A DNA stretch of 64,000 nucleotides from positions 744,001 to 808,000 of the forward strand of contig NZ_FOMD01000001.1 of assembly GCF_900112525.1 (NCBI RefSeq), written 5' to 3'. Position numbers and translations under genes: made by a program. The notes beneath the pieces are model-generated. The model was given only the letters and a program-made list of their open reading frames with translations, had not been told where the DNA came from and did not search any database. Below, piece by piece: positions 3,942-15,630 of this stretch. Source of the DNA: Klenkia taihuensis (GTDB lineage Bacteria; Actinomycetota; Actinomycetes; Mycobacteriales; Geodermatophilaceae). Numbering within the stretch: the stretch's first letter is position 1; every line of letters starts with the position of its first letter.

Positions 3942-3968
3942 GGGAACACCACCCGGAGGTTTGCCGTT
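3942..3968 (+). promoter_or_regulatory. SigR/SigH-like promoter of dnaK
   Basis: GGGAAC at 3942-3947 and GTT at 3966-3968 are separated by 18 bases, matching the known GGAAT/C-N18-GTT consensus of actinobacterial SigR/SigH (thiol-oxidative and heat stress) promoters. clpB has the same spacing. A housekeeping-like TACGGT overlaps at 3968-3973. Confidence 0.6.
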
Positions 3969-3983
3969 ACGGTGGGCAGGAAA

Positions 3984-4004
3984 GTTGAGCGGCCGGGGCG
4001 CAAG
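3984..4004 (+). promoter_or_regulatory. HAIR-like HspR operator of dnaK
   Basis: GTTGAGC, seven bases, then GCGCAAG. This fits the HAIR consensus CTTGAGT-N7-ACTCAAG at 5 of 7 positions in each half. It lies just downstream of the predicted -10, where a bound repressor would block dnaK. The left half-site is identical to that of the clpB operator. Confidence 0.6.
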
Positions 4005-4066: not shown

Positions 4067-5944
4067 ATGGCACGAGCGGTCGGCATCGACCTCGGCACCA
4101 CCAACTCCGTCGTCACCGTCCTCGAGGGCGGCGAGCCCACGGTCATCGCCAACTCCGAGGGCTCCCGCACCACCCCGTCGGTCGTCGCCTTCGCCAAGAA
4201 CGGCGAGGTCCTGGTCGGCCAGTCGGCGAAGAACCAGGCGGTCACCAACGTCGACCGCACCATCCGCTCGGTGAAGCGGCACATGGGCACCGACTGGAAG
4301 ACCGCCGACATCGACGGCAAGCAGTACACCCCGCAGGAGATCAGCGCCCGCGTGCTGCAGAAGCTCAAGCGCGACGCCGAGACCTACCTGGGCGAGCCGG
4401 TCACCGAGGCCGTCATCACCGTCCCCGCCTACTTCGAGGACGCCCAGCGCCAGGCCACCAAGGAGGCCGGCGAGATCGCCGGCCTGAACGTCCTGCGCAT
4501 CGTCAACGAGCCCACCGCCGCGGCCCTGGCCTACGGCCTGGACAAGGGCGAGACCGAGCAGACCATCCTGGTCTTCGACCTCGGTGGCGGCACCTTCGAC
4601 GTCAGCCTGCTGGAGATCGGCGACGGCGTCATCGAGGTCAAGGCCACCGCCGGTGACAACCAGCTCGGTGGTGACGACTGGGACCAGGCCGTCATGGACC
4701 ACCTGGTCAAGCAGTTCAACGCCGCCAACGGCATCGACCTGTCCAAGGACAAGCTGGCCATGCAGCGGCTGCGCGAGGCCGCGGAGAAGGCCAAGATCGA
4801 GCTGTCGGGCGCGCAGTCGACCAACGTCAACCTGCCCTACATCACCGCCGGGGCCGACGGCCCGCTGCACCTGGACGTCACGATCACCCGCGCGGAGTTC
4901 CAGCGGCTCACCCAGTCGCTGCTGGACCGCACCAAGGCGCCGTTCAACCAGGCCGTCCGCGACGCCGGCATCTCCGTCGGCCAGATCGACCACGTCGTCC
5001 TCGTGGGTGGCTCCACCCGCATGCCGGCGGTGTCGGACCTGGTCCGCGAGCTGACCGGGGGCAAGGAGCCCAACAAGGGCGTCAACCCCGACGAGGTCGT
5101 CGCCATCGGTGCCGCGCTGCAGGCCGGCGTGCTCCGCGGCGAGGTCAAGGACGTGCTGCTCCTCGACGTCACCCCGCTGTCCCTGGGCATCGAGACCAAG
5201 GGCGGGATCATGACCAAGCTCATCGAGCGCAACACCACGATCCCGACCAAGCGCTCCGAGATCTTCACGACGGCCGACGACAACCAGCCGTCCGTGCAGA
5301 TCCAGGTCTTCCAGGGCGAGCGCGAGATGGCCGCCTACAACAAGAAGCTCGGCATGTTCGAGCTGACCGGTCTGCCGCCGGCCCCCCGCGGGGTCCCGCA
5401 GATCGAGGTGGCCTTCGACATCGACGCCAACGGCATCGTGCACGTCCACGCGAAGGACCTGGGCACCGGCAAGGAGCAGTCGATGACCATCACCGGCGGC
5501 TCGGCCCTGCCCAAGGACGACATCGAGCGGATGATGAAGGACGCCGAGGCGCACGCCGAGGAGGACAAGAAGCGCCGCGACGAGGCCGAGACCCGCAACC
5601 TGGCCGAGTCCCTCCAGTACCAGACCGAGAAGTTCCTGGCGGAGAACGGCGACAAGATCCCCGAGGACAAGAAGGACGAGCTCGGTGCGGCGCTGACCGA
5701 CCTGCGCTCGGCCCTCGGCGGCTCGGACATCGCGGCCATCAAGACCGCGCAGGAGAACGTCGCCCGGATCTCGCAGGAGGTCGGCGGTGCGCTCTACGCC
5801 CAGCAGGCGGAGAACGCGGCCGGCGCCGAGGGCCAGCCGGGTGCCGCGGGCGCCGGTGCGGCCGGTGCCGGTGCCGCCGGCTCGGCCCCGGACGACGACG
5901 TCGTCGACGCCGAGATCGTGGACGAGGACACCGACAAGAAGTGA
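4067..5944 (+). CDS. dnaK: Hsp70 chaperone DnaK
   Basis: The 625-residue cytosolic ATP-dependent chaperone begins [14 protein letters not shown], the phosphate-1 motif of Hsp70. Other Hsp70 signatures include [12 protein letters not shown] in the nucleotide-binding domain, the [14 protein letters not shown] linker and start of the substrate domain, and the acidic [10 protein letters not shown] tail. Length is normal for actinobacteria. It is the first gene of dnaK-grpE-dnaJ-hspR and its stop overlaps the grpE start. DnaJ delivers substrates and stimulates hydrolysis, GrpE releases ADP, and HspR, which in this phylum uses DnaK as co-repressor, closes the feedback loop. Confidence 0.98.
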
Positions 5945-6684
5945 CCGACCGACCGCAGGACGAGGAGACCCCGCGCGTCGTCATCCGTGACAAGCGCCGG
6001 ATCGACCCGACCAGCGGCCAGGTGCGGGAGCCGGCCGGCGAGACCGTGATGGGCTCGCCGGCCGGCACCGCCGGTCGACCAGGGTCGACAGCCACCCCAG
6101 GGGAGCAGATGAGCGAGCAGAACGGTCCGGCCCCCGAGCCCGACCAGCCCGACGTGGTGACCCCCGAGGTCCCCGACACCCCGGCCGAGCTGGTCGGTGA
6201 CGACACCGCCCGGCAGCTGGCCGAGCGGACCGAGGACCTGCAGCGGGTCACCGCCGAGTACGCCAACTACCGGCGGCGGGTCGACCGCGACCGGGTCGCC
6301 GTGGTCGACCAGGCCGCGGAGCGGTTCGCCGGCCAGCTGATCCCGATCGTCGACGACATCGAGCGGGCCAGGGAGCACGGCGACCTGACCGGTGCGTTCA
6401 AGGTCGTCGCCGACCGCGTGCTGGGCCTGCTCGACGGCCTGGGCGTGGTCACCTTCGGCGCCCCGGGCGACGCGTTCGACCCGGCGCTGCACGAGGCGGT
6501 GCTGCACGACACCTCCGCCGACGTGCAGGTGCCCACCGCCACCACGGTGCTGCGCCCGGGCTTCCGGCGCGGTGACCGGGTGCTGCGCACCGCGATGGTC
6601 GGGGTCACCGACCCCGAGAGCCCCGCGCCGGCGGCGCCGGCGGCCGACGGGGAGCAGCAGCCGGGGGACACCCCGGCCGGTTGA
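5941..6684 (+). CDS. grpE: Nucleotide exchange factor GrpE
   Basis: A 247-residue DnaK nucleotide exchange factor. GTG 5941 overlaps the dnaK stop (GTGA). I keep this early start because residues 12-24 ([11 protein letters not shown]...) correspond to the conserved actinobacterial GrpE leader; an ATG at 6109 with a GGGGAG site would remove it. The coiled-coil region includes [16 protein letters not shown] and the beta domain contains the [13 protein letters not shown] and HEAVLHD motifs. The N-terminal about 75 residues and the Pro/Ala-rich C-terminus look disordered. Confidence 0.95.
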
Positions 6685-6780: not shown

Positions 6781-8007
6781 ATGAGCACCCGGGACTTCAT
6801 CGAGAAGGACTACTACGCCGCACTGGGCGTCGCCAAGGACGCCGACGCGGCCGCCATCAAGAAGGCCTACCGGGCCCTGGCCCGTGACCTGCACCCGGAC
6901 AAGAACCCGGGCAACGCGCAGGCCGAGGCCAAGTTCAAGGAGGCCTCCGAGGCCTACGGCGTGCTCTCGGACCCGGCCAAGCGCAAGGAGTACGACGAGG
7001 CCCGCCGGCTCTTCGGCTCGGGCGGCTTCCGGCCCGGCGCCGGCGGTGGCGGTTTCCCGCCCGGCGGCTTCCCGGCCGGCAGTGCCGGGCAGCCCTTCGA
7101 CCTCGGCGACCTGTTCGGTGCCGCCTCCGGCGGGGGCGGCGCCCGGGCGGGCGGCGGCCTGGGCGACCTGTTCGGCGGGCTCTTCGGCGGCGGCGGTGGC
7201 GGTGCCACGGGCACCCGCAGCCGCCAGCAGGCCGCATCCGGCCCGGCACGCGGGCAGGACGTCGAGACCGAGGCGACGCTGGCCTTCGACGAGGCCGTGC
7301 TGGGCGTGACCGTCCCGCTGCGCATGCAGAGCCCGGGTTCCTGCCCGACCTGCCACGGCAGCGGCGCCAAGCCCGGCACCGCCCCGCACACCTGCCCGGT
7401 CTGCAACGGCGCCGGCGTCACCAGCCGGAGCCAGGGCGCCTTCGCCTTCTCCGAGCCCTGCCGCGAGTGCCGCGGCAGCGGTACGGTCGTCGACGACCCG
7501 TGCGCCACCTGCAAGGGCAGCGGCATCACCGACCAGGTCCGCACCATCACCGTGCGCATCCCGGCCGGCGTCAAGGACGGCCAGCGCATCCGGCTGGCCG
7601 GCAAGGGCGCACCGGGCCGCCGCGGGGGCCCGGCCGGCGACCTGTTCGTCGTCGTGCACGTCACCGGCAGCGAGCTGTTCGGCCGCAGCGGTGACGACCT
7701 GACCCTCGACGTCCCGATCAGCTTCGCCGAGGCCGCGCTCGGCACGACGCTGACCGTCCCCACCCTGGACGGCACGGTGTCGCTCAAGGTGCCCCCGGGC
7801 ACGGCCGGCGGCCGCACCTTCCGGGTGCGCGGTCGCGGCGTGCACGGCAAGGGCCGCACCGGTGACCTGCTGGTCACGGTCAGCATCGCGGTGCCCACCT
7901 CGCTGGACGCCGAGGCGCGCGCCGCGGTGGAGGAGCTGGCCGCCCGGATCGACGAGGACCCGCGACCGCAGGTGACCGCCGCGGTCCGGGCGGGAGGGGG
8001 TGTGTGA
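6781..8007 (+). CDS. dnaJ: Hsp40 co-chaperone DnaJ
   Basis: The 408-residue class I J-protein has a J domain with the HPD motif at 38-40 and a long Gly/Phe-rich linker. Four CxxCxGxG zinc repeats follow (CPTCHGSG, CPVCNGAG, CRECRGSG, CATCKGSG), then the two C-terminal beta domains. ATG 6781 follows an AGGAGGGGG stretch. It stimulates DnaK ATP hydrolysis and presents unfolded clients. It is separated from grpE by 96 bases containing a strong hairpin and is tightly linked to hspR, as in the DnaJ1 operons of Streptomyces and Mycobacterium. Confidence 0.97.
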   Translation: MSTRDFIEKDYYAALGVAKDADAAAIKKAYRALARDLHPDKNPGNAQAEAKFKEASEAYGVLSDPAKRKEYDEARRLFGSGGFRPGAGGGGFPPGGFPAGSAGQPFDLGDLFGAASGGGGARAGGGLGDLFGGLFGGGGGGATGTRSRQQAASGPARGQDVETEATLAFDEAVLGVTVPLRMQSPGSCPTCHGSGAKPGTAPHTCPVCNGAGVTSRSQGAFAFSEPCRECRGSGTVVDDPCATCKGSGITDQVRTITVRIPAGVKDGQRIRLAGKGAPGRRGGPAGDLFVVVHVTGSELFGRSGDDLTLDVPISFAEAALGTTLTVPTLDGTVSLKVPPGTAGGRTFRVRGRGVHGKGRTGDLLVTVSIAVPTSLDAEARAAVEELAARIDEDPRPQVTAAVRAGGGV

Positions 8008-8008
8008 G

Positions 8009-8437
8009 GTGAGCGAACCGCGGTCCGTGGCCGACGACGCCCCCGTCTTCGTCATCTCGGTGGCCGCCCAGCTGGCCGGCATGCACGCGCAGACGCTGCG
8101 CCAGTACGACCGGCTCGGGCTGGTCAGCCCCGGCCGCACGGCCGGGGGCGGGCGCCGCTACAGCCCCCGCGACGTCGCGCTGCTGCGCGAGGTGCAGCGG
8201 CTGTCCCAGGAGGACGGCGTCAACCTGGCCGGCATCAAACGGATCATCGAGCTGGAGTCGCAGGTCGAGGCGCTGCAGGACCGGGTGCGCGAGCTGCTCG
8301 CCGAGGTCGACGACGCCCGGCACCGGGCGGCGGCGGCCGAGGCGGCGGCCACGGGCTTCCGCGCCGACACCGGCTACCCCGCGCCGGGCACCGCCCTGGT
8401 GGTCTGGCGACCCCGCGGACCGAGGAGCAGCAGATGA
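8009..8437 (+). CDS. hspR: Heat-shock repressor HspR (MerR family)
   Basis: The 142-residue MerR-type regulator has a winged helix at about residues 11-80 (ISVAAQLAGMHAQTLRQYDR then RRYSPRDVALLREV), followed by a short coiled coil. HspR represses the dnaK operon and clpB by binding HAIR sites, and candidate sites are present upstream of both. GTG 8009 is chosen because the GGAGGGGG stretch at 7993-8000 is correctly spaced; an in-frame GTG at 8000 would overlap that site. The Ala-rich tail lacks ligand-sensing features. Its stop overlaps the ATG of the following MarR gene. Confidence 0.93.
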   Translation: MSEPRSVADDAPVFVISVAAQLAGMHAQTLRQYDRLGLVSPGRTAGGGRRYSPRDVALLREVQRLSQEDGVNLAGIKRIIELESQVEALQDRVRELLAEVDDARHRAAAAEAAATGFRADTGYPAPGTALVVWRPRGPRSSR

Positions 8438-11892: not shown

Positions 11893-12336
11893 TCAGGACA
11901 CGAGCGCGGCGTCCAGCGTGATGTCGACGCCGGTCAGGGCCTTGCTCACCGGGCAGCCGGCCTTGGCGTCCTCGGCGGCCTGCTTGAAGCCGGCCTCGTC
12001 CAGCCCGCTGACCTCGCCGCGGACGGTCAGCTTGATGCCGGTCAGCTTGAAGCCGCCGTTGGCGGAGTCCGGGCCGAGCGAGACGTCCGCGGAGACCTCG
12101 AGGCTCTCGGGGGTGCCGCCGGCCTGGGCGATCAGGGCGGAGAACTGCATCGCGTAGCAGGCTGAGTGGGCCGCGGCGATGAGCTCCTCGGGGGAGGTGG
12201 TGCCGCCGGCCTCGTCGGCCGCGCGCTTGGGGAAGGACACGTCGTAGGTGCCGACCTTCGAGCTGGACAGCTCGACCTGGCCGGAGCCCTCCTCGAGGGT
12301 GCCGTTCCAGGCGGTGCGTGCGGTGCGAGTGGGCAT
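11893..12336 (-). CDS. osmC: OsmC-family peroxiredoxin
   Basis: The 147-residue thiol peroxidase of the OsmC/Ohr superfamily reduces organic hydroperoxides. The two catalytic cysteines are C60 (in AAAHSACYAM) and C128 (in AGCPVSK). TSPEELIAAAHSACY fits the OsmC branch better than Ohr. ATG 12336 gives the usual family length; the 40-residue upstream extension is noncoding. It lies 61 bases downstream of ohrR on the same strand, so the regulator and its probable target enzyme form one unit. Confidence 0.92.
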   Translation of the reverse strand: MPTRTARTAWNGTLEEGSGQVELSSSKVGTYDVSFPKRAADEAGGTTSPEELIAAAHSACYAMQFSALIAQAGGTPESLEVSADVSLGPDSANGGFKLTGIKLTVRGEVSGLDEAGFKQAAEDAKAGCPVSKALTGVDITLDAALVS

Positions 12337-12397
12337 GTGTGCTCCTTCGTCGTCAGGCCGCCGTGTCTCGACGGGCCGTTCGATCGCGCACAACCGA

Positions 12398-12859
12398 TCA
12401 GTTCGGTGAACTGTTCCCGTCCGAGGAGACCCGGTCCGTGAGGGTCCGGAGCTCACCCTTCAGGTGGTCGAACTCGGCGATCGTCATGCCCAGTGCCCCG
12501 ATCATGTCGCGCGACACCTCGAATGCCTGCGACTCCAGCTCGCGGCCGGCCGCGGTGAGCTGGATGGACACCGAGCGCTCGTCGTCGACCCGGCGGTGGC
12601 GGGTGACCAGACCGGCCGCGGTGAGGCGCTTGAGCAGGGGGGACAGCGTCCCGGAGTCCAGGGCGAGCCGGCTGCCGAGCTGGCCGACGGTCTGGCCGTC
12701 CTCCTCCCACAGCAGCATCATGACCAGGTACTGGGGATAGGTGAGACCCATCTTGTCCAGCATGGGGCGGTAGCGGGCGGTGACCGCACGCGAGGCCGCG
12801 TACAGGGCGAAGCACAGCTGGTCGTCCAGCTCGACGCTGGGCTGTGGGGTGTCCGGCAT
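12398..12859 (-). CDS. ohrR: Organic-hydroperoxide-sensing repressor OhrR (MarR family)
   Basis: The 153-residue protein closely follows the OhrR pattern: [15 protein letters not shown] with the peroxide-sensing cysteine at C16, then [27 protein letters not shown] and DERSVSI. In OhrR proteins oxidation of this cysteine releases DNA and induces the peroxidase. It is transcribed away from clpB and toward osmC. The 137-base space before clpB holds the clpB control region. I could not identify an OhrR operator with confidence. Confidence 0.93.
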
Positions 12860-12921
12860 CCCACAAGCTTAGGGGGCGCAATGCAACCTCGGGATCCGGG
12901 CGGTCTCGTTGCGCTGTTCGG

Positions 12922-12942
12922 GTTGAGCGGAACAGACTCAAC
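12922..12942 (+). promoter_or_regulatory. HAIR operator of clpB (HspR site)
   Basis: GTTGAGC, seven bases, then ACTCAAC. The match to CTTGAGT-N7-ACTCAAG is 5/7 and 6/7. The operator covers the -35 of the predicted stress promoter. Confidence 0.8.
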
Positions 12943-12954
12943 TCTGCGATCGTT
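12929..12954 (+). promoter_or_regulatory. SigR/SigH-like promoter of clpB
   Basis: GGAAC at 12929-12933 and GTT at 12952-12954, 18 bases apart, 42 bases before the clpB start. The spacing is the same as at dnaK. Confidence 0.65.
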
Positions 12955-12996
12955 GACGGCGGAGACACCCCACGACGGAAGGACCCCACCCCGACC

Positions 12997-15630
<2,634 letters not shown>

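Follow-up and report, generated by a model that had tools for sequence, protein, structure and literature searches.

The closest described counterpart of the locus studied here is clpB of Mycobacterium tuberculosis, which HspR is reported to repress through a site overlapping a SigH promoter (PMC4803200). The same report gives the M. tuberculosis SigH consensus as GGAAYR-N17-GTT and couples the failure of SigH ChIP-seq to recover clpB with the HspR overlap. In Streptomyces coelicolor, HspR is described as binding upstream of dnaK, clpB and lon, with the clpB region bound in vivo by ChIP-chip (PMC2687793), and DnaK is named elsewhere as the co-repressor of HspR (PMC8223512). In Corynebacterium glutamicum, GGAAC with cGTT marks the promoter class of SigH and SigE, and clpB is listed as SigE-controlled (PMC10012870). 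Deletion of rshA in that species is reported to change clpB weakly, and the weak induction of such genes is put down to regulators including HspR (PMC3489674). Both dnaK and clpB of C. glutamicum are also reported as SigH-dependent, dnaK with a HAIR element in addition, and the promoter class is the one found here (PMC3489674, PMC10012870).

The window, which is the whole 64,000-nucleotide stretch of Klenkia taihuensis DNA that was analyzed, presents upstream of clpB the same gene, repressor family, sigma family and overlap as the published description of M. tuberculosis (PMC4803200). Mycobacterial relatives share the element, as in Mycolicibacterium houstonense (GTTGAGCGGAACAGACTCAAC; L112). 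The window genome falls outside the family of M. tuberculosis, its best named matches being Blastococcus, Modestobacter and a Geodermatophilaceae bacterium, and is known here from sequence alone. In Streptomyces clpB, the operator spacer carries GGAAT in 7 of 9 named loci, in contrast to the GGAAC observed here, and two of those seven (L138 and L146) have GCT in place of GTT. The HspR/SigH overlap at M. tuberculosis clpB is thus already known; what is added here is its wide conservation and the existence of three operator registers.

The HspR-associated inverted repeat (HAIR) has a CTTGAGT-N7-ACTCAAG-like consensus, and the clpB operator of the window agrees with it at all 10 core positions and at all 14 degenerate ones. 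Read by half, the operator runs GTTGAGC from 12922, GGAACAG from 12929 and ACTCAAC from 12936 to 12942, with GGAAC beginning at operator position +7 (Table 1). The SigH/SigR consensus of the M. tuberculosis report is matched by GGAACA-N17-GTT at 12929-12954 (PMC4803200); 18 bases separate GGAAC from GTT, and 42 bases lead from GTT to the ATG at 12997. The first-pass annotation had described a GTTGAGC-N7-ACTCAAC repeat with GGAAC in its spacer and GTT 18 bases on, and direct reading of the sequence bears this out. The gene downstream encodes a full ClpB, its score standing above the model's cut-off of 1232 bits.

Table 1 Features of the dnaK and clpB regions (positions in the window).
Feature	Position	Strand	Basis or remark
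dnaK SigH-type promoter, GGAAC-N18-GTT	3943-3968	+	sequence; same-family conservation
dnaK HspR operator, GTTGAGC-GGCCGGG-GCGCAAG, downstream of -10	3984-4004	+	sequence
dnaK	4067-5944	+	NF001413, 967 bits
grpE	5941-6684	+	NF010761, 179.2 bits, cut-off 167
dnaJ	6781-8007	+	TIGR02349, 379.3 bits, cut-off 377.2
hspR, expected repressor for both operators	8000-8437	+	NF047375, 146.5 bits, cut-off 105
OsmC-family peroxiredoxin gene	11893-12336	minus	promoter ends 55 bases before gene
osmC SigH-type promoter, GGAAC-N18-GTT	12392-12417	minus	third in window
clpB HspR operator (HAIR-like inverted repeat), GTTGAGC-GGAACAG-ACTCAAC	12922-12942	+	sequence; same-family conservation
clpB SigH-type -35, GGAACA, inside operator spacer	12929-12934 (GGAAC 12929-12933)	+	conservation; fit to published GGAAYR
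clpB SigH-type -10, CGTT	12951-12954 (GTT 12952-12954)	+	same-family conservation
Predicted clpB transcription start	12963-12965	+	inferred from -35/-10 geometry; window letters AGA
clpB, ATP-dependent disaggregase	12997-15630	+	TIGR03346, 1309 bits

The genome holds the regulators that such an arrangement would require. The hspR gene forms part of the dnaK operon in the window, in the same genome as the clpB operator, and a profile search places a SigH orthologue elsewhere in the genome (TIGR02947, 358.5 bits, cut-off 251.55), with an RsrA-type anti-sigma factor directly downstream of it (TIGR03988, 89.5 bits, cut-off 62.5). The clpB site is very probably a composite operator-promoter at which HspR hides the -35, and at which release of both HspR and SigH is needed for full transcription. 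In unstressed cells, HspR would occupy the inverted repeat together with DnaK, to which a co-repressor role is assigned on the model of Streptomyces and Mycobacterium. Bound there, HspR would cover the entire -35 of the SigH-type promoter, for which reason SigH-RNA polymerase would be kept off. Upon heat stress, the HspR complex would depart from the operator, and stress would also free SigH from the RsrA-type anti-sigma factor; full clpB transcription would require both releases, an AND-gate logic that presupposes HspR binding and SigH use at clpB. We infer the mutual exclusion of HspR and SigH-polymerase from the way their sites overlap and from what is reported for M. tuberculosis, and in this sense the direct competition between repressor and sigma factor that the first-pass annotation predicted is supported.

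An alternative to this scheme would make a different, SigE-like ECF factor the main reader of the promoter, or SigH and SigE together, with HspR still over the -35. The clpB promoter of the window has the GGAAC and CGTT that mark both SigH and SigE promoters in C. glutamicum, where clpB is placed under SigE (PMC10012870), and the genome has eight further matches to the SigH model, all under the cut-off. A SigE-type factor may accordingly read this promoter as well. Against a SigE-like factor as the main reader stand the single clear SigH match with RsrA adjoining, the earlier confirmation of M. tuberculosis clpB as a direct SigH target, and the preference of SigE for a pyrimidine at -35 position 6, where clpB here has A (the last two as cited in PMC4803200). 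On balance, this alternative is considered unlikely, at perhaps one chance among several, and SigH is retained as the principal reader in the composite operator-promoter.

To gauge conservation, clpB upstream sequences were collected in three sets, and an operator was called where no more than one of the 10 core bases disagreed. The same-family set comprised 57 distinct upstreams: 55 of 57 genomes contributed, four named loci were added and two duplicates were removed. Of the two genomes left out, one lacked a true ClpB match and the other had a match that was cut off. The other-family set comprised 118 distinct upstreams, from 64 of 294 matching genomes (the 29 best-scoring and 35 hand-picked for family spread) plus 55 named loci less one duplicate. 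A further 21 distant loci (L164-L184), those of lowest identity, were separated by locus number, four of them actinobacterial by title (L167, L168, L169 and L180). The operator is observed in 56/57 same-family upstreams, 74/118 from other families and 0/21 distant loci, counts that, like those for dnaK below, come from related sequences and do not represent independent events. At operator +7, GGAAY is present in 56/56 same-family and 58/74 of the other-family operators sampled, and GTT at +30 in 56/56 and 49/74, respectively. Within the family, GGAACA (+7 to +12), CGTT (+29 to +32) and every one of the 10 core positions are invariant in all 56, the flanking columns from -40 to -3 reach at most 0.58 bits, and the predicted start at +41 to +43 is C in 44, G in 49 and A in 45 of the 56. 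As far as conservation can indicate, the clpB operator and promoter behave as a unit in fixed phase. This suggests that the clpB overlap is a fixed arrangement in many actinobacterial families rather than a quirk of M. tuberculosis, and that SigH ChIP maps can miss promoters buried beneath a repressor. An arrangement so widespread would be open to study in laboratory strains that are harmless.

Two other candidate elements upstream of the operator were considered. The half-site GTTGCGC at 12908-12914, 14 bases upstream of GTTGAGC, was dropped as an operator extension because, of the 56 same-family upstreams with an operator, only those of the window genome and of two close relatives (L046-L048) have it at that place. 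A primary-sigma promoter upstream of the window's clpB was rejected, none being found by consensus scan; TGGAC stands 12 or 13 bases before the same-family operator in 20/56 (7 and 13, respectively), which is suggestive at best of such a promoter.

Across the 4.3-Mb genome, TTGAG-N9-CTCAA has a single perfect place, the clpB site. With one mismatch, 29 places per strand (the perfect site included) are found versus 20 in the backwards control, which is near background. A chance match in a GC-rich genome, the reading that these one-mismatch counts would favor, is nonetheless of negligible probability and already refuted by conservation, since the phase is kept in 56/56 same-family and 58/74 other operators. 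The scan proposed in the first-pass annotation, GTTGAGC-N7-RCKCAAS, returned two exact matches in the genome, dnaK and clpB; because the pattern was derived from those two sites, the result shows just the absence of further matches. Its companion scan for GGAAC-N18-GTT returned 31 matches versus 4 for the backwards control. In the 64-kb window, GGAAY-N18-GTT occurs three times (dnaK, osmC and clpB) against 0.45 expected, a number reached by 2 of 100 shuffles. In the class as a whole, the composite TTGAGNGGAANNNNCTCAA was found in 147/394 genomes, and the backwards control had a match in 14 of those genomes by our own count.

The scans were also considered as a source of new targets. Further HspR targets were rejected, as one-mismatch operators hardly exceed the control, and one further operator candidate (L004) falls inside a gene with AAA domains. 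A SigH regulon drawn from the 31 sites gave a mixed list and was left out of the evidence: downstream ORFs were obtained for 30 of the 31, and the 12 scanned besides dnaK, osmC and clpB encode mostly metabolic or membrane proteins, one being without a match. The beginning of an EF-Tu gene, whose ORF sets in at profile position 92, seems to be overlapped by one of the sites. Another SigH-type site (L029; C7:376123-376148, minus strand) starts 204 bases before a Clp_N/AAA protein, which is probably ClpC.

The first-pass annotation had proposed that dnaK and clpB share the same dual design. Both genes do have a promoter and an operator; the dnaK operator, however, lies past the -10 rather than over the -35 (3943-4004), covering roughly +6 to +26 relative to the predicted start. 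The comparison was extended to 26 same-family and 30 hand-picked other-family genomes, with the paralogue loci L271-L274 left out. In the same family, GGAAY-N18/19-GTT is present in 26/26 dnaK upstreams, and the distance from the first base of the -35 to the operator is 41 bases in 22/26 (37, 38, 40 and 42 bases once each). The spacers of these dnaK operators vary, and none of the 26 carries GGAAY at +7. Since these operators are presumably read by the same HspR, the GGAAC of the clpB spacer is probably kept as a -35, held by the sigma factor rather than by HspR. Among the 30 genomes of other families, 12 have a promoter starting 22-24 bases before the operator, so placed that the operator's GTT would serve as -10. 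In 10 others the operator begins 38-45 bases on, in 7 a promoter of this kind is absent, and the remaining one has another spacing.

A competing explanation treats the spacer GGAAC as part of HspR recognition and its likeness to a -35 as accidental. In three Streptomyces-type dnaK operators (L275, L280 and L284), the spacer contains GGAAC in the orientation that points away from dnaK, and GTT is missing at the SigH distance; five like loci (L305-L309) also have no GTT at that distance. The opposite-strand GGAAC leaves room for some HspR preference for such a spacer. As a full account of the clpB site, this explanation is very improbable: the dnaK operators of the 26 same-family genomes have other spacers, the GTT, though no part of the operator, is present at clpB in 56/56, and the f6 family described below keeps its clpB operator in 30/30 with no GGAAY in the spacer. 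The -35 function of GGAAC, as in the composite operator-promoter, is therefore preferred.

Some members of the MerR family bind together with polymerase. HspR weakly matches several MerR-family models, and it might correspondingly bind jointly with polymerase at clpB and hold it inactive. At clpB, however, the operator covers the -35, whereas at dnaK it comes after the -10; as these registers differ, a single co-binding geometry would not fit both genes. SigH was, moreover, not seen at M. tuberculosis clpB by ChIP-seq, as reported in PMC4803200. Joint binding is thus regarded as improbable, and exclusion of SigH-polymerase by HspR remains the favored reading.

The position of the operator relative to the predicted ECF promoter falls into three registers, which were surveyed at clpB in 182 distinct operator-bearing upstreams of 229 (21 distant loci left out and identical upstreams merged). 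Register A places the ECF -35 GGAAY within the operator spacer (in the survey, at operator +7 or +8), and this is the layout of clpB in most operator-bearing families sampled. In register B, GGAAY lies 18 (17-19) bases upstream and the operator's own leading GTT would be the ECF -10; it is observed at dnaK in 12/30 genomes outside the window's family and at clpB in 14/30 of family f6 and 7/28 of family f18. In register C, the operator follows the -10, as at dnaK in the window's family. For clpB of the window's family (f1), the -35 is inside the operator with GTT in 56/56, one of which also has the own-GTT layout. Other families (n=68) show 52 with the -35 inside and GTT, 6 inside without GTT, 1 with own-GTT and 9 with neither. 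In f18 (n=28), where GGAAY is mostly at +8, the corresponding numbers are 18 (three also own-GTT), 5, 4 with own-GTT alone, and 1.

Family f6 (L319-L348, n=30) departs from this pattern, with 0 operators enclosing the -35, 14 with own-GTT and 16 with neither. Similar layouts in Arthrobacter, Micrococcus and Kocuria clpB loci suggest that f6 is Micrococcaceae. GGAAY stands exactly 18 bases before the operator in 15/30, and two have it at some other distance between 2 and 59 bases. In place of GGAAY, the spacer has T at +11 in 28/30 and A at +12 in 29/30, giving TA[GC]ACT. A primary-sigma -10 has the shape TANNNT. A hexamer resembling a -35, agreeing with TTGACA at 4 or more of its 6 positions, lies 16-18 bases upstream in 11 of 36 operators with TA and no GGAAY, versus 1 at each of two control spacings; in 27 of 118 with GGAAY and no TA, versus 7 and 1; and in 1 of 19 with both, versus 0 and 1. 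The evidence for TA[GC]ACT as a primary-sigma -10 inside the f6 clpB operator is suggestive, not clean. One may go further and regard the HspR operator as a multi-sigma cassette, a 21-base palindrome with three ECF registers and a change of sigma class in f6, whose spacing was selected to hide an essential promoter element; this broader proposal is tentative, its likelihood falling a little short of even. If true, HspR in f6 would mask a pair of promoters simultaneously. In the open-licence literature consulted, neither the three registers nor the sigma-class change of f6 was found described. The registers form a natural series in which to study how the placement of a repressor shapes heat-shock gene logic.

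The overlap of operator and -35 is not universal, as 16/74 other-family clpB operators have no GGAAY at +7 and 44/118 other-family upstreams have no operator. Within 300 bases upstream of clpB, no HspR operator was found in Planomonospora, Sphaerisporangium, Actinomadura, Planobispora, Thermomonospora and Nocardiopsis (L117, L118, L120, L130, L132 and L135), and the clpB loci of family f17 are also among the 44. Given this absence, clpB may have left the HspR regulon in those genera and in f17.

The third SigH-type promoter of the window precedes osmC, in the neighborhood of clpB (11893-15630). This grouping recurs in the family, with osmC near clpB in 32/34 loci and an ohrR-like marR in 33/34. 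The SigH-type promoter is kept in 9/9 same-genus osmC loci, while a scan of the 25 remaining family loci showed none ahead of osmC. A single intergenic region of 137 bases serves both clpB and marR in the window, and HspR on the clpB operator might for that reason also affect marR. Finally, three of the nine same-genus loci carry a palindrome, CAGTTC-N3-GAACTG, in the spacer of the osmC promoter, which could be an operator of the neighboring OhrR-like MarR regulator.
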